Source of the DNA: Candidatus Altimarinota bacterium
Lineage (GTDB): Bacteria; Patescibacteriota; Gracilibacteria; GCA-2401425; JAJOLG01
Direction of reading: 5' to 3'
Length of the DNA stretch: 15,180 nucleotides
Assembly: GCA_021129445.1 (NCBI GenBank)
Contig: JAJOLG010000047.1
Location: forward strand, 1-15,180
How positions within the stretch are numbered: the stretch's first letter is position 1; every line of letters starts with the position of its first letter. Below the pieces are notes generated by a model. It had not been told where the DNA came from and did no database searches. It worked only from the letters and a program-made list of their open reading frames with translations. The translations under genes were made by a program, and so were the position numbers. This document shows positions 2,708 through 10,279 of the stretch, piece after piece.

Positions 2708-3106
2708 ATGAACTATAAAGATATTTTAAAAAAGAATTGAATTAGTTTAACCAAACAAAGATTAGAAATTCTTGGTAAAATTGAAAAATTTCATCATTTT
2801 TCTTATATTGATTTACAAAATCAATTAAAAAATACATGAAGAGCTAGTATTTTTAGGAATTTAAAATTGTTTAATGAGGTTTGAATTATTAGAATAATAG
2901 ACTATACAGAATGAGCAATTAAATATGAATTAAATGATGACACCGTACATCATGAACATATGAAGTGTTGAAGTTGTAATGAAATTTCTGAATTTGATGA
3001 TAGTGAACTACATAGTCTTTTTGAAAAAATTTCAAAAAAAAATAATTTTAAATTAAAAAAACATTCACTTTTATTTGAGTGAGTTTGTGTAAATTGCAAT
3101 AATTAA
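2708..3106 (+). CDS. Fur-family metal-responsive transcriptional regulator
   Basis: A 132-aa protein of typical Fur/Zur/PerR length. Residues 1-75 form the winged helix (LTKQRLEILGKIEKF... then a recognition region NTGRASIFRNLKLFNEVGI at 42-60, resembling the family's ATVYRTLxxLxxxGl). The metal-sensing half has a His-rich stretch HHEHMKCGSC (81-90) and two CxxC pairs, Cys87/Cys90 and Cys127/Cys130, the standard structural Zn4Cys site. This tells Fur family but not which metal (Fe, Zn, Ni, Mn or peroxide) is sensed. It is the first gene after the perfect palindrome at 2670-2694, so autoregulation and control of the six following genes are likely. The next ATG is 13 nt downstream. Regulators of this kind are scarce in reduced CPR genomes, which strengthens the link to the neighbouring metal-type genes. 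Confidence 0.92.
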
Positions 3107-3119
3107 TAATAAAAAATAT

Positions 3120-4091
3120 ATGAGAATAGCATTTATGTGAAAATGATGAAGTTGAAAAACTACAGTTACAACATCTTTTTTGAAATATATTACAAAAGAA
3201 AGAGCCGATAAACAAAAACTAATTTTTGATGTTGATATAAATTCTCATTTGTTTAAAGAATATTCTTTAAATAAAAATGATATTAATTTTTTTTCTTGAG
3301 ATTTTTTAAAAATAGCAGATATTTTTGAGCCTGAATTTAAAAAAACATACGATTTAGACTTCATACCGAGTTTTTGAACTTTACCAATAAATAAAAATAC
3401 AAATCTAATTAAATGAGATTTATTTAATCATGATTTTGTAAAAAAATATTGATATGATTTGGATTCAACTACAAAACTTTTTACTTTGTGAAATTATATT
3501 ACAAAAAAGACTCAAATTTGAGAATGCTATCATTCTTTGTTAAACTCTTATGAACTATTGTTGCACAGAATTATTGATGACAAAAATTCTTATGTTATAG
3601 CTGATACTACAGCCTGAATAGATAATTTATGAACATCTTTATGTTTGTGATATGATATTACAATATTTGTAGTAGAGCCTTCTGAAAGGAGTGTAAGTGT
3701 TTATAAAGATTACATAAATACAGCGTGAATAGATACAGAAAGTGTATTTGTACTATGAAATAAAATAGAAGATGAAGATGATCTTGATTACATAAATAAA
3801 AATGTAAAAACTGATAAATTATTATGATTTTTAAAATTTAATAAAAAAATAAATAGAGATGAGTGAGCTGATAGATATGAATTATTTATTGAAGATAATT
3901 TATCGATATTTAATACTATTTTAGAAAAACTTGATAGCGCTGATAAAAACTGGAATTCATATTATAACCGAGTTCACAAGCTCTTTATTGATGAATCTAA
4001 ATCGTGGTTTAGCTCTTTTTATAATAAAGATTTAGAAAAAATACTAACACTTGATAAAAATTTAATAAATAAAATACAAAAATGAGAATAG
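3120..4091 (+). CDS. CooC-like P-loop ATPase, first tandem copy
   Basis: A 323-aa ATPase of the SIMIBI class. The deviant Walker A GKGGSGKTT lies at 7-15, with signature Lys8; all its glycines are TGA. Switch I FDVD is near 36-39. The Walker B/switch II region VIADTTAGIDNLG is at 159-171, then FVVEPSERSVSVYKDY (183-198) and LGNK (212-215). The order AGI(D/E)xLG ... VVEPS.RS ... GNK matches CooC, the ATPase that helps insert nickel into CO dehydrogenase. CooC carries a CxC nickel-binding motif between the switches; here the equivalent region reads GECYHSLLN, with Cys136 and His138. The C-terminal ~60 aa, rich in aromatic residues, extend beyond usual CooC length. All 18 glycines are TGA. Its 3' end overlaps the next gene by 10 nt, indicating translational coupling. 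The client protein is unknown. Confidence 0.85.
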
Positions 4092-5029
4092 CCTTTTTAT
4101 GAAAATGATGAAGTTGAAAAACAACTTTATCATGAAATTTCGCAAATTATTTAAATGCCAAAAATAAAAAAGTGTTACTGGTTGATGCTGATATTAATAT
4201 GCATTTAAATACATTAGTTTGAATCGATAGGAAAAATATAAAACCACTTTCAGACAACTGAAAATTAATAGAAAATTATATTAATAAAAATAGGAGCGAT
4301 GTTGAAAATATTCCATTTATTGGATCTATGCCACCTACTTTAAAATCAAATTTCATAAAATGAATTGATGATGAATTTTTAAATCAAATATCTTGCACAA
4401 ATGATAAATGATTAAAATTTATGGCAATTTGAAATTATAATGACAGTGATGTTTGAGTAAATTGTTATCATACAAAAACAGATAATTATATAAAATTTTT
4501 AAATCATTTTTTAGATAAAAATGATGATATTATGATTGCTGATAGTGTAACTTGAATTGATAACATATGAAATCCATTAATATATTCTTATGATTTAAAT
4601 GTGATAGTTGTTGAACCAAATCAAAAATCTTTATGAATTTACAAAGATTTTATAAAAGGTTTAGAAAATTTATGAATCGATTTAAATCTAAAAGTTGTTT
4701 GAAATAAAGTTATGGATGATGAAGATATTTTATTTTTGAAAAAAAATATAAAATCTGAGCATTTTTTATGCTATCTTAAAAAATCAAAAAATATGAAAAA
4801 TTTTGATAGATGAGATGAAGAATGATTATGATTATTTATGAAAGAACATGAAGATATTTTTGATAAAATATATAATCATTTAATTAGTGTTAAAAAAGAT
4901 TACGAAAAATATTATAAAAATATTTTAGATAATCATAAATTCGTTTCTAATTCTTACTATAATGATTATTACAATATAGATTTTAATAAATTTATAGATC
5001 CTGATTTTAATTTTAATAAAGTATTATAA
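4082..5029 (+). CDS. CooC-like P-loop ATPase, second tandem copy
   Basis: A 315-aa paralogue of the preceding gene. The first 15 residues match except position 6 (MRIAFL versus MRIAFM), including Walker A GKGGSGKTT at 7-15. The DNA at the two starts is also nearly identical, so the pair arose by tandem duplication and has diverged further in. Later landmarks: VDAD (34-37), the Cys-Tyr-His motif VNCYH (126-130) in the place of the CooC nickel-binding CxC, IADSVTGIDNIGN (152-164), VIVVEPNQKS (174-183) and VVGNK (205-209). The C-terminal region from about 255, rich in Tyr and Asn, resembles that of the first copy in length and style. ATPases of this class act as dimers, so a heterodimer of the two copies is an attractive guess. 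The stop TAA shares one base with the next ATG. Confidence 0.85.
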
Positions 5030-6495
5030 TGGAATATGCTTCAATAAAACCTTTTCTTCATGAAAAAGTAGAAAAAATTATAAATAATACAGAAAAATTA
5101 TTTGATTTATCATGACTCCATAATGGACCTATTCATGTTTTAGTGCCAGAAATAATGAATGATAATATAAAAGCTTTTAATAAAGTTTTTGATGATTTAG
5201 AAATGAATTGAATTATTAAATATGCTCATAAGACTAATAAGTCAAAAGCTTTATTGTTTCAAGCTTATAAGAATAATTTGTGAGTAGATGTTGCAAGTGA
5301 AGAAGAATTAAAAAATGTTTTATCTGTTTGATTTACATGAGATAAAATTAGCTGTACTTGACCAAAAAGTAAATCATTTTTATTTTTAGCATTATCACAT
5401 AAATGTCTAATTAGCATTGATAATTTAGATGAAATAAAAAAAATTATAGAATTAAGTGAAAAATTTAATTTTAAAAAAGTAAATATTTTAATTCGTTTTC
5501 ATGATTTATCTTGAAATGACAGAAAGCTTGTAAAGAAAAATACAAAATTTTGAATATCTAAAAATAATTTATTGGAAGTTTTAGATATTATTAAAGATTT
5601 TAAATTTATAGATATAAAATGAGTTCATTTTCATTATGATGAGCATCAACATGAAATAAAATCATGAAGTATCAATGATGCCCTTTCTGTTATAAAAAAA
5701 CTTTACGAGAATAACTATTCTCCAACTATAATAGATATTTGATGAGGTTTTAGAGGAAGAGAACTTGATTCTAAATTAGAATGGAGTAATTACATAGATT
5801 TTTTATCTGATAAAAGAAGAAAAAAATTTGATACTCATACTTGGTGAAACTGATGATATTGAATAAAAGTAAATGAAAGATGATGAATAGATTGAAGAGA
5901 ATTTGTTGAAAAAAGATATAGAGAAGTAGATAATTATGATTTTTTATCTAAAATTTTAAAAAAAGATTTTAAAAATTGATATACTTTATACGAAGAAATA
6001 AATGATTCAATGCTTAATTTAATGATAGAGCCATGATACTCTTTGTCGAGTAATACGTGATTTTCTATATTCAGAGTAGATTGATATAAAACTGTTTCTT
6101 CATGAGATGAGGCAATAATTATAAATTGAAATATTTTAAATCTTTCTAGTAAAATGTGGGAATATTTTGCTGATCCAATACATTTAATAAAAGATAAAAA
6201 AATAGAAAATAATAAAAATAATTTAGAAAAAAATATTAATCCTGAAGAATTTTATTGATACATACTTTGAAATCTTTGTAGGGATGATGATATTTTAATT
6301 AAAAGAAAAATTTATTTCAAACAAAAACCAGAAGAATGAGATTTAATAATTTTTCCAAATACATCTTCATATGTATCAGATTTTGAAGATTGAAGCCCTA
6401 TAATGCAAAATAAATGAAAAAAATTTGTAGCAACTGTAAAAGAGTGAAATGTAAAATTTTACGAAGATAATTTATATAACTTAATTAATTTATAA
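5029..6495 (+). CDS. Y4yA-family PLP-dependent enzyme (fold type III, decarboxylase-like)
   Basis: A 488-aa enzyme of the alanine racemase/ornithine-diaminopimelate decarboxylase fold. The PLP lysine is in YAHKTNKSKALL, at Lys68. GVDVAS follows at 85-90, then SCTGPKSK (108-115), GVHFHYDE (198-205), the phosphate-binding IDIGGGF (235-241), IEPGYSLSSNTG (333-344), and a C-terminal LGNLCRDDD (413-421) with FPNTSSYVSDFED (442-454). That last part, with LGNLC and a Tyr in place of the usual YD of DAP decarboxylase, matches what I recall of the Y4yA group named after a Rhizobium symbiosis-plasmid gene, whose members sit beside cysteine-synthase-like genes in siderophore-type clusters. An amino-acid decarboxylase reaction is the best guess; the substrate is unknown. 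Its start overlaps the previous stop, and the next gene starts 3 nt after its own. Confidence 0.85.
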
Positions 6496-6498
6496 AAC

Positions 6499-7809
6499 AT
6501 GATTTATAATAATATTTCTGAGCTTATTTGAAATACACCAATACTAAAATTGCCAGATAATTACGCTGGGATTAAAAATATAGAAATTTATGCAAAGCTG
6601 GAACATATGAATCCATTTGGTTCGTTAAAGGATAGAATTGCAAAAAATATGTTTGATGAAATCAAAGATGACGTTAAGGCCTCTGGTAAGACAATAATTG
6701 AAGCTTCTAGTTGAAATACATGAAAAGCTTTATCGATATTGTGCTCCACAAATCAAATTCCATTTAAGGCTATAACAAATAGAATAAAAATACCAGAAAT
6801 GAGAATGGCAATGCAGTGTACTTGATGTGAAATAGAGGAGCTTCCATGACTTTCAGATTGTCCAGATTTAAATGATCCAAATAGTTACACGACATTTGCT
6901 GATAATTTAGCAAAAGGTGAGCCTGAAAAATATCATTATACAGATCAATATTTTAATGAAAAAAATTGGCAAGCCCATTATAAATCATGACAGGAGGTTA
7001 TTGGTGACTTATGAGAAGTTGATTATTTTTTCTCAATGTTATGAACAACTTGATCATCTTTTTGAATGTGAAAAGCTTTTAGAGAAAAAAATGAAAATAC
7101 TGAAATATATTGAGTTGTAGCAAAATCTTGAGAACATATTCCTTGAGCAAGAAATTCAAATGAGCTCTGGGAAGTGTGATTTTATGATAGAGATTTTTAT
7201 ACTGATATTTTACTTGAAACTTGAAAATGAGCTACTGATTGATCAATTAAGTTGATTCAAGACTTATGATTATTAGCTTGACCAACTGCCTGATGAACTT
7301 TTACCTCAGCTTTAAAAAAGTTAAAAGAATTAGATAAAAAATTGGATTGAACGAAAGAGAAGAAAAAAGCTGTTTTTTTAGTTTGTGACAGAGTGGAGTT
7401 GTATTTTAATTATTTAAACGGTGTTTCACCTGAAATTTTTTCTGAATCCACGTCTTCAAGAAAAAAAGTTTCAGATATGAAATCTGAAACAGATAAAGAA
7501 TTTATTTTAAGTTCCGACTTTGTAGAAAAAAATAAAGATGATTTTATTATGATTGATATCAGATGAAATTTTCCATATTCAATATGACACATCGAGTGAT
7601 CTTTAAATATAATCGATGAACATTTAACTTCTATGGTTGAAGAGTGAAAAGTTTTTCCTAAAAAGAAAAAATTATTAATTATTTGTAGAATCTGAAAAAA
7701 CTCTGCCCAATATGTAAATTTTTTAAGAGAACAGTGATATGAAGCTTTTATGCTTGCTTCGTGATTAAGCTGATGGAAAAAAGACTGATTAAATCTTATT
7801 AAGGATTAG
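6499..7809 (+). CDS. cysteine-synthase-like PLP enzyme fused to a rhodanese domain
   Basis: A 436-aa two-domain protein. Residues 1-300 are a fold type II PLP enzyme related to CysK and SbnA: IGNTPILKL near 10-18, PLP lysine Lys44 in NPFGSLKDR, the substrate loop SSGNTG at 70-75, a phosphate-binding loop GTTGSS at 182-187 in place of GTGGT, and GPTAGG at 261-266. After a lysine-rich linker, residues 335-436 form a rhodanese: IDIRGNFPYSIGHIEGSLNI (352-371) and the active-site loop CRIGKNS with Cys396, then SGLSGWK. The catalytic cysteine is present, so sulfur transfer is possible. YTDQYFN and DYFFSMLGTTGS resemble SbnA, the enzyme making the precursor of L-2,3-diaminopropionate, more than plain CysK. 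Fusion to rhodanese suggests that sulfur, persulfide or a thiol product is involved. The methyltransferase gene follows after 8 nt. Confidence 0.88.
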
Positions 7810-7817
7810 AATCTTTT

Positions 7818-8528
7818 ATGAATAATAATTTAATTTGTGATGTAAATAATTACATATTTACAAAAATTAATGAAGACAGAAAGATAAAATTCAAAGAACT
7901 TTTTTGAGAAATAAAATGATGAAGAGGTTTGGATTTATGATCTTGATTTACTTGAATTTACTGGCTTCTTTCTTATGTAGAAAAAATTGAATCTATAGAT
8001 TATTTTGATTATTTTGATAATAATATTAAAAAATTAGAAGAAATATTAAATAATATTTCTCCAGAATATTTAAATGAAAATTTTTCTGATACAATTAATT
8101 TTTTAGAAGAAGAAAAATTTATTCAAAAAAATTCTGAAGAATTGTGTATTAATATAATTGAAAAAGTTGGTGAAATAAAGCAATTTAATTTTTTTAATGA
8201 AATTAATAATGGAAATAACGGTGATTATGATTTTATAATTTCAAGTGAAGCTATTGAATGTGTAGAAAATTATGAAGATTTTAAAAAAGTTGTAAAAAAT
8301 ATTTATAATGGTTTAAATATTTGATGATTATTTATTTGAAATATTTTAGAATATAAAGAGAGAAATAGTATTACAGATGATTTAATAAAAAATAAACAGG
8401 AATGAAAATTGAATCCATCAATTAAAACTATTAAAAAAGCATTTTTAGAAATTTGATTTGAAATTAAAAAGTTAAAATTAATAAAAAATAATAGATGAAA
8501 TTTAATTTATTTTGTTGGAAAAAAATAA
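7818..8528 (+). CDS. class I SAM-dependent methyltransferase, small-molecule type
   Basis: A 236-aa protein with the Rossmann-fold SAM motif I LDLGSGFTG at 38-46, an acidic motif II after ESIDYFDYFDNN (58-69), and motif IV/V region YDFIISSEAIECVENYEDFKKV (137-158) followed by LNIGGLFIGNIL (166-177), the post-motif IxGG turn. The pattern LDxGSGxTGIYxLLS..E.I...DY.D.N...LE resembles the nicotinamide/phenylethanolamine N-methyltransferase group, suggesting a small amine substrate; this is a resemblance, not an assignment. It contains a middle stretch rich in Glu, Asn and Ile (80-130). It sits 8 nt after the CysK-rhodanese gene, so it probably acts in the same pathway, for example N- or S-methylating an amino-acid-derived product. 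A non-coding gap of about 48 nt follows. Confidence 0.82.
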
Positions 8529-8576: not shown

Positions 8577-8624
8577 ATGAAAAAAATAATCCTATTCGTG
8601 CTATTCTGAATAATTTTATGATAA
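8577..8624 (+). CDS. 15-aa hydrophobic upstream frame overlapping the transporter start
   Basis: An ATG preceded by the A-rich AATAATAAAAATATTTT leader opens a 15-codon frame, MKKIILFVLFGIILG, ending in TAA at 8622-8624. Its end overlaps the ATG of the transporter (8618) in a different frame. The peptide closely resembles the transporter's own signal sequence (MIKKIIKYFLILFIILG), as if that segment had been duplicated. It could be a leader peptide that couples translation, or the better-initiated remnant of the old start. It is too short to be confident. Confidence 0.35.
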
Positions 8625-10279
8625 AAAAAATTATAAAATATTTTTTGATATTATTTATAATATTGTGAAACTTTAATACTATTAATGATATTAAAGCACA
8701 CCCTTTAGATGTTTCAATTTCAGTCTTTGAACTATGAAATTGAAAAAAAATAAAGGCAAAAACCTTTTTACACTTTTTTGAAGTTGGGTTTTTATTAGAT
8801 CAGAAGTGAGAAAAAATTGATAATTTTGAAGAAATTTTTGAGAAAAAAGAAATTTTTGAAAATTTTTTTAGAGAGAAAAATTTATTTAAAAATAATTGAA
8901 AAACCTGTTTAATAAATAATTTTGAAATTTCAAAACAGCAAGAATTTGAAGTTTACTCAGATTGATTAAGGCTTGATTATAAAATTATTTGTCCAGATAG
9001 AATTGAAAATTTTTATTTTGAAAATAGAATGTTTATTGAAGATTTTGATCTTCAAACAAATAAAATGTTATTTTTCCAAGGAAAATCCCAAAATCCTATT
9101 TATGAAAAAATTTTAACTTCAAAAATTTTTTCAAATGAATTTTCTTTAGCTAATCCAAAAAATTCTGATAAAGATTCTGATTGAGATTGACTTTATGATA
9201 AAGAGGAAGTGATTTATTGAACAGATCCAAATTTGATGGATAGTGATTTTGATATGTATTCTGATTGATTAGAAGTGAATGATTGATGGAATCCTTTGAA
9301 TCCAGAAAATTCACCTGGTCAAAAACTTTTAGTAAATATTGAAAATGCAAAACAAGAAAGATTGAATTATCTTTCAAATCAAGATAATTGAATAATATTT
9401 GAAAAAATAAATGTTAATTCTTGAGAAGAAAATTTAGAAAATACTTGAGAAAAAATTTCTGATGAAAATAAAATTTTTTTAGACTCTGAAAAAAATTTAA
9501 ATGAAGATTTAGAAAAAAAATCAGATAATAAAATTATTAAAGAAGTTTCCAGAGAAACAAGTGATTATTCTCTTTGATGATGAGTTCTAAAAGATACTTT
9601 GGAATTGGTTTCAAAACAAATTTGAAAAACTTGAGAGGGAAATTTTTATTTAATGATTTTCTTTGTGTTTCTTTTGTGAGTTTTACATGTTTTGGCTCCA
9701 TGACATTGAAAAGGTGTTTTGGCAGCTTATTTAATGGAAAAAAGTAGTGGTTTTAAAGTTGTTTTTAGTTATTCTTTAATTTTTACCTTTACTCATTTAA
9801 TTGATATTATTGCTATTGCAGTTGTAATTAAGGTTTTCTCTCTTTGGGCGACAATTTGAGCTTATATCTGAGTTTTACAAAAAATTTGAATAATTGGATT
9901 ATTTCTCTTTTCTTTATTTTTTCTTTATAATGCTTTTAAGAATCATAAAACTTTGAGTTGTTCCTGTTGATCTTGTAAATCAAAAAAACTCTTTAATTCA
10001 CCTTTTTTACTTTGAATTTTATCTTGAATTGCACCCTGTAGTTATGGCTGGGTTCTTTTTCTTACAGTTCTTTCACTATGAAGAATAGAGTGGTTATTTC
10101 CAGTAATGTGAGTTTTTGCTCTTTGAATTTTTTTTACAATTTTTGCATTTTGATCTACAATTGTAATTTTGAAAGTTAAAACCCTTTGAAGATATGATAA
10201 TTTTGCTAAATACTCTGGAATTGTTTCTTGATTAGTTTTATTTGGGCTTTCGGTTTATTTGTTGTTTAGTGTTTTTTAA
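8618..10279 (+). CDS. NicO/RcnA-like Ni/Co transporter with large extracytoplasmic Ca-binding-type region
   Basis: A 553-aa membrane protein. Residues 1-28 look like a signal peptide ending before AHPLDVS, the start of the mature region in NicO-type proteins. Residues 28-320 are outside the membrane and include aspartate-rich thrombospondin type 3/EF-hand-like repeats at about 184-224 (DKDSDGDG, then TDPN and DSDFDMYSDG), followed by an acidic Glu/Asn/Lys linker. Residues 343-553 hold about six helices: LHVLAPGHGKGV (356-367), matching the NicO HxLxPGH core, FTHLID (391-396) and SGIAPCSYGW (469-478). A loop CSCGSC at 448-453 offers metal-binding cysteines. Typical RcnA is near 275-370 aa, so this one is long. 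Family members either import or export Ni/Co; direction is not decidable here. As the last gene of a Fur-headed cluster it is probably the metal or ligand transporter. A strong hairpin follows. Confidence 0.85.

Follow-up and report, generated by a model that had tools for sequence, protein, structure and literature searches.

A putative zinc-handling family of CooC-like P-loop ATPases with a Cys-x-His motif

Two neighboring genes from a Gracilibacteria operon encode proteins that, judged by their sequences, are CooC-like ATPases of the SIMIBI class with a deviant Walker A motif, in which Cys-x-His takes the place of Cys-x-Cys as the predicted interface ligand. Here, we propose that each is a P-loop ATPase that binds Zn through a Cys2His2 site at the dimer interface and is part of a zinc-limitation response, a reading to which we assign a probability of about 0.55. 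For the broader proposal, the odds appear even: these proteins may belong to a widespread group of zinc-handling Cys-x-His (CxH) P-loop ATPases that spans Patescibacteria, Actinomycetota, and Alphaproteobacteria and mirrors the COG0523/ZNG1 zinc GTPases but is driven by ATP. Its members would be paired with one of two partner modules, either CysM-rhodanese (LysA present or absent) or a SCO5389-family protein, and would act as an A–B heterodimer where duplicated.

The window, namely the whole 15,180-nt stretch of DNA analyzed, is mostly 20–27% G+C and codes poorly under translation table 11. The table 11 reading was rejected because it hides both ATPase genes, and table 4 was rejected because a TGA read as Trp falls inside the P-loop. 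Table 25 (SR1/Gracilibacteria, TGA = Gly) opens long genes and puts TGA codons at P-loop glycines. Under this code, ATPase A (323 amino acids, 18 TGA codons) and ATPase B (315 amino acids, 19 TGA codons) are complete, and their genes overlap by 10 bases. The first-pass annotation had placed the pair at 4082–5029, which covers ATPase B and leaves out ATPase A. The features of the operon are as follows.

2667–2697, no strand: 31-base palindrome TAGTTAGTTGAGACTAAGTCTCAACTAATTA (15-bp half-sites, gap of 1, one mismatch)
2708–3106, plus strand: Fur-family regulator, first operon gene (Pfam FUR, 3.8e-24)
3120–4091, plus strand: ATPase A, CooC-like, with C136-Y-H138 (AlphaFold2 model, pLDDT 90)
3525–3533, plus strand: Cys-Tyr-His codons of ATPase A, metal column of CooC
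4082–5029, plus strand: ATPase B, CooC-like, with C128-Y-H130 (AlphaFold2 model, pLDDT 90)
4463–4471, plus strand: Cys-Tyr-His codons of ATPase B
5029–6495, plus strand: PLP enzyme of the LysA/ornithine-decarboxylase fold (Pfam Orn_Arg_deC_N, 3e-24)
6499–7809, plus strand: CysM-like PLP enzyme fused to a rhodanese domain (PALP, 9.2e-42; Rhodanese, 5.1e-13)
7818–8528, plus strand: SAM methyltransferase of the NNMT/PNMT/TEMT type
8618–10,279, plus strand: membrane protein with a TSP3 repeat, weakly DsbD/NicO-like (DsbD_2, 0.0037)

The six genes from fur to the methyltransferase share a strand, neither overlaps nor gaps between them exceed 13 bases, and a gap of 89 bases separates the methyltransferase gene from the weakly NicO-like gene. 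The latter is possibly the last gene and the metal transporter of the operon; its product carries AHPLDVSISVF close to the N-terminal start and scored 19.4 bits against a cut-off of 195 with the nickel/cobalt efflux model. The palindrome is a probable Fur-family operator ahead of the operon. A TTGACA hexamer lies upstream of it (2648–2653), and the palindrome would overlie the −10 region. The product of the Fur-family gene scored below the cut-offs of the NCBIfam Fur, PerR, and Zur models. The sole match in an Rfam scan of the window was tRNA-Lys at 2421–2496.

As the first-pass annotation had claimed, the two neighbors share their N-terminus and Walker A motif: both begin with MRIAF-[ML]-GKGGSGKTT, which contains the deviant Walker A motif GKGGxGK[ST] with the signature lysine. 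The two proteins are about 30–33% identical. The Cys-Tyr-His (CYH) residues it had reported, Cys136/His138 and Cys128/His130, are also present as claimed, and its placement of CYH in the metal column of CooC agrees with a profile built from 11 homologues. When this profile was compared with the PDB, CooC1 (3KJE) was the best match (E 1.5e-31; next best, 7.7e-11), and the segment "igksCyHgkl" fell on CooC1 "GGSQCYCREN", with C-Y-H on C-Y-C (Cys112/Cys114). In the CooC1 crystal structure, Zn is held by Cys112 and Cys114 of two subunits, and Ni competes there (PMC6006190). The second Cys of the CooC Cys-x-Cys is replaced by His in ATPase A, ATPase B, and all CxH homologues; by analogy with this structure, the ligands across a dimer would be two Cys and two His.

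The AlphaFold2 monomer models of ATPases A and B have a mean pLDDT of 90 each, and in both the CYH is located at the start of a helix, right behind a loop of pLDDT below 50. CooC1 was rank 1 in Foldseek. In the VIA-align comparison, whose list does not exclude families missing from it, CooC1 gave a Z of 19.1 (rmsd 3.9, 247 residues aligned) and the best Z was 20.5 for the nitrogenase Fe protein. Structure was rejected as a family discriminator because the Fe protein, FleN, CooC, and MinD all gave Z values of 18–20.5. Since the values of the Fe protein and CooC1 are close, the fold identifies the SIMIBI class only, and the assignment of CYH to the CooC column is based on sequence, not fold. The nitrogenase Fe protein and MinD/ParA share the SIMIBI fold but have different ligand motifs. 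Identification as NifH or an Mrp Fe–S ATPase was rejected (nifH, 19.8 bits versus 394; ApbC and MrpORP, under 21 bits), and the NCBIfam minD scores were likewise far below the cut-off.

The exchange is strictly conserved. C and H occupied 2 of the 18 invariant columns among the 11 homologues, and in an alignment of 31 homologues (19–42% identical to ATPase A), C136 and H138 were among 14 invariant columns, the others being P-loop and switch residues. Their presence among so few invariant columns indicates that CYH is more than chance. Variable Cys or His in homologues would have spoken against the motif, and this objection fails because both residues are invariant; the position between them can be Y, F, A, S, or G. 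Of 80 relatives drawn from 84,980 genomes, mostly from Actinomycetota, 78 showed CYH (the automated match fell on another site in the remaining two). At least 554 relatives were counted, and the gene occurs in hundreds of genomes, including those of the tractable genus Streptomyces. In the class search, the only full-length relatives without CxH were the tandem of G228 and G208 (MCPY and MCDY). The G228 pair falls with CooC in the tree, and the CxH family forms a separate branch (split 98/92). This CooC-like tandem (L047:2307–4065 and L048:9584–11,339) lies near a G3E GTPase with GCVCC. A 66% G+C contig with the standard code (L046/L052, G263), binned as a Peribacteraceae MAG in the class of the window, is probably foreign to its bin. 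A literature search, largely without subscription papers, did not find any CxH CooC-like ATPase described or linked to zinc, and the CxH ATPases are apparently a large undescribed family.

The genomic surroundings point to zinc. The loci were chosen by ATPase homology, not by zinc genes, and among the 29 non-actinobacterial CxH genomes, 19 carry a zinc- or Fur-type gene near the ATPase; no zinc gene was found at the loci of the other 10, several of which are on short contigs. A FUR-family gene accounts for 16 of the 29 genomes (the window, G175, G041, G347, G632, G376, G777, G900, G723, G805, G669, G725, G760, G746, G910, and G720). For the adjacent or nearby regulators at two alphaproteobacterial loci (L157 and L159), the Zur model NF008646 was the best match, with 115 and 109 bits under a cut-off of 167. 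ZIP transporters (L042, L164, L166, and L168), ZigA-like GTPases (L016, L018, L021, and L168), and ZrgA (L076) also occur near the ATPase. Candidate operators were found as well. An E. coli-type Zur box, TGATGTTATATTATAACATTA, lies ahead of the ATPase start at L157. The S. coelicolor Zur motif (PMC5472717), counted at up to 2 mismatches within 100 bp upstream, precedes 14 of the 24 SCO5389-type actinobacterial copies, in which the ATPase gene is followed by that of a SCO5389-family protein, compared with ~1% in shuffles; in the same scan, it was found in 0 of 40 copies of the second, larger actinobacterial group. Near CYH ATPases of this second group, a fusion of a SulP transporter and carbonic anhydrase was observed (L066:7476–9893 and ~36 other Streptomyces/Kitasatospora loci). 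In other Patescibacteria, ATGCAA-N5-TTGCAT is placed between the Fur gene and the ATPase or just upstream of the ATPase, with 13 sites (up to 2 mismatches) in ~2 kb of such regions versus 9 in the remaining ~200 kb. The window has no such site at up to 2 mismatches, its palindrome matches no known Zur box, and no ZIP or ZnuA was found in its own genome, which is ~95% complete. The zinc association of the CxH family as a whole is well supported.

Nickel was considered in the same context. CODH (TIGR01702) was absent from the genome of the window and from 16 other CxH genomes, and it was detected in the CooC control, a single Acetoanaerobium record (the only one given by a plasmid search for more) in which a canonical CVC CooC lies beside CODH. 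Membership in CooC was rejected because both the Cys-x-Cys ligands and the CODH client are absent. ATPases A and B share with the nickel ATPases CooC1 and AcsF (3KJE; CODH/ACS maturation) the fold, the GKGGxGKT signature, the position of the motif at the same column behind a flexible loop, and the switch motif D-x-[VTAM]-x-G, but they differ in carrying Cys-x-His and ~60 extra C-terminal residues, and the CxH family differs in its zinc-gene neighbors and in the lack of CODH in the genome. Cys-x-His would be suitable for Co(II) or Ni(II) too, and for the window operon, where the metal is putatively zinc, the weakly NicO-like gene downstream fits nickel or cobalt as well. One alternative is a Ni/Co chaperone as in CooC with softened ligands, serving a Ni/Co enzyme or the downstream NicO-like transporter. 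It would agree with CooC1 being the nearest characterized relative and with the gene at 8618–10,279, but CxH genomes are without CODH, the homologues are surrounded by zinc genes and Zur operators, and the NicO-like match is far under the cut-off in a gene that has no full homologue at the compared loci; we consider it distinctly unlikely. The altered metal choice suggested in the first-pass annotation is likely, because zinc-homeostasis genes surround the family and CODH is missing from the 17 CxH genomes. As CxH is fixed family-wide beside zinc-starvation genes in several phyla, zinc, not nickel, is the most likely metal.

The CxH ATPases are accompanied by one of two sets of partner genes. 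The ATPase occurs with LysA and CysM-rhodanese at four loci (G064, G077, G071, and G175), and with CysM only, lacking LysA, at five (G003, G070, G139, G041, and G150). The G064 operon also has a homologue of the methyltransferase. The order on an alphaproteobacterial contig (G376) is zur, a 234-amino acid protein, ATPase, LysA, and CysM-rhodanese, and the same order without a visible zur is found in G440. In two alphaproteobacterial operons, the genes immediately preceding the ATPase encode similar proteins of 215–234 amino acids with no Pfam match (L158:8908–9552 and L159:4032–4733). Of the 353 genomes in the class, 11 encode CysM-rhodanese, and 10 of these 11 belong to the 14 with a CxH ATPase (hypergeometric p 1.5e-15, a statistic that ignores relatedness). 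The exception is G176, where fur-lysA-cysM-rhodanese (L170:4677–8089) has no ATPase between fur and lysA; its genus-mate G175 does have an ATPase. The G176 locus indicates that the LysA/CysM enzymes do not strictly need the ATPase. In alignments, the active-site residues are invariant both in CysM-rhodanese (K44 and rhodanese C396, with SxxNT present in the window copy) and in the LysA-like enzyme (PLP lysine K68, EPG, and GNLCxxxD). In the other set, a SCO5389-family (KH_NucS_shadow) protein adjoins the CxH ATPase in three phyla (L053, L060, and 22 further actinobacterial loci; L042, L061, L161–L163, L157, and L076). N-C-[CH] is conserved in these proteins, most of which also end in Cys; this conservation and the recurrent position next to the ATPase argue that the SCO5389 "shadow ORF" family is a real protein.

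These linkages bear on two further explanations. The ATPase might use ATP to activate or assemble the PLP enzymes, or in Actinobacteria the SCO5389 protein; CxH would then be a structural zinc site or a redox/persulfide relay and would not serve in delivery. The tight linkage to CysM-rhodanese or to SCO5389-family proteins with the conserved N-C-[CH] would fit this function, as would the retained rhodanese Cys; however, the two partner sets are unrelated, G176 has the enzymes without the ATPase, and the ZIP, ZigA, and ZrgA neighbors indicate metal supply, so that we regard it as unlikely. Alternatively, the operon might make a zincophore, much as SbnA/SbnH-type enzymes contribute to the synthesis of staphyloferrin B, and the ATPases would handle it or release its zinc. 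As with SbnA/SbnH, CysM-like and LysA-like PLP enzymes are found together under a Fur-family regulator; SbnH is presumably the staphyloferrin B counterpart of the LysA-like enzyme of the window. The SbnA-like (118 bits) and LysA-like enzymes are side by side with a methyltransferase, and the gene of an SBP_bac_5 importer diverges from that of one Streptomyces ATPase. Metallophore clusters, moreover, are known in Zur regulons (PMC6103462). This explanation is nevertheless improbable: the window CysM is fused to a rhodanese, matches to the SbnA and LysA models fall well short of the cut-offs, and the window has no recognizable siderophore synthetase, ligase, NIS synthetase, opine dehydrogenase, or exporter. 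Binding and handling of zinc by the ATPase itself remains our preferred reading.

The first-pass annotation regarded the exchange as a feature of the duplicated pair. This did not hold, as it is a trait of the whole, mostly single-copy family, and a restriction of CxH to duplicated pairs was rejected because single-copy homologues carry it. Being single-copy, most family members are presumably homodimeric. In the window organism, the duplication is old and both copies are maintained, since G118, which belongs to another family, encodes one orthologue of ATPase A and one of ATPase B (support 100/100 for A and 99/96 for B), while a single ATPase copy is present in each of the next relatives, G064 and G077. 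In a tandem of G402, a copy with the altered P-loop GGGAGDGKTT and with GCYH retained (L156:3174–4250) lies directly before an intact CYH ATPase and is possibly a non-hydrolyzing partner. The age of the A and B lineages and the G402 tandem are compatible with a putative A–B heterodimer, which the first-pass annotation had suggested to be obligate.

The mechanism that we propose is modeled on CooC. Two subunits would pair over the nucleotide, as a homodimer in most species and as A–B or homodimers in the window organism. The loop that leads into the next helix would supply the ligands for one Zn(II), a Cys and a His from each subunit; such Cys2His2 sets are common in zinc sites. ATP binding or hydrolysis may then open the site and pass zinc to a client, as in the scheme proposed for nickel in CooC. 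Candidate clients are the CysM-rhodanese enzyme, the SCO5389-family protein, and zinc enzymes in general. When metal is short, the LysA-like decarboxylase and CysM-rhodanese probably yield a small product that bears an amine or sulfur; a role of this product as a zinc ligand is a guess.

Cells must direct scarce zinc to the proteins that need it, and the COG0523/ZNG1 GTPases are the established candidates for this task. Like the CxH ATPases, COG0523, ZigA, and ZNG1 are P-loop NTPases; they are proposed to deliver zinc under Zur control, and members of this group lie near the CxH ATPase at four loci. They are G3E GTPases with CxCC, whereas the CxH family is of the MinD/CooC class with Cys-x-His; neither ATPase A nor ATPase B has a cobW match in Pfam, and both are of the CbiA/MinD class. 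In relation to the COG0523/ZigA zinc chaperones, which use GTP, the CxH family would be a counterpart that runs on ATP. If this is true, it would be a second zinc NTPase family, from a different P-loop class and one residue change away from the CooC nickel site, and it would allow the effect of ligand choice on metal identity in SIMIBI chaperones to be tested directly. It would also give a likely role to a conserved gene of hundreds of genomes.
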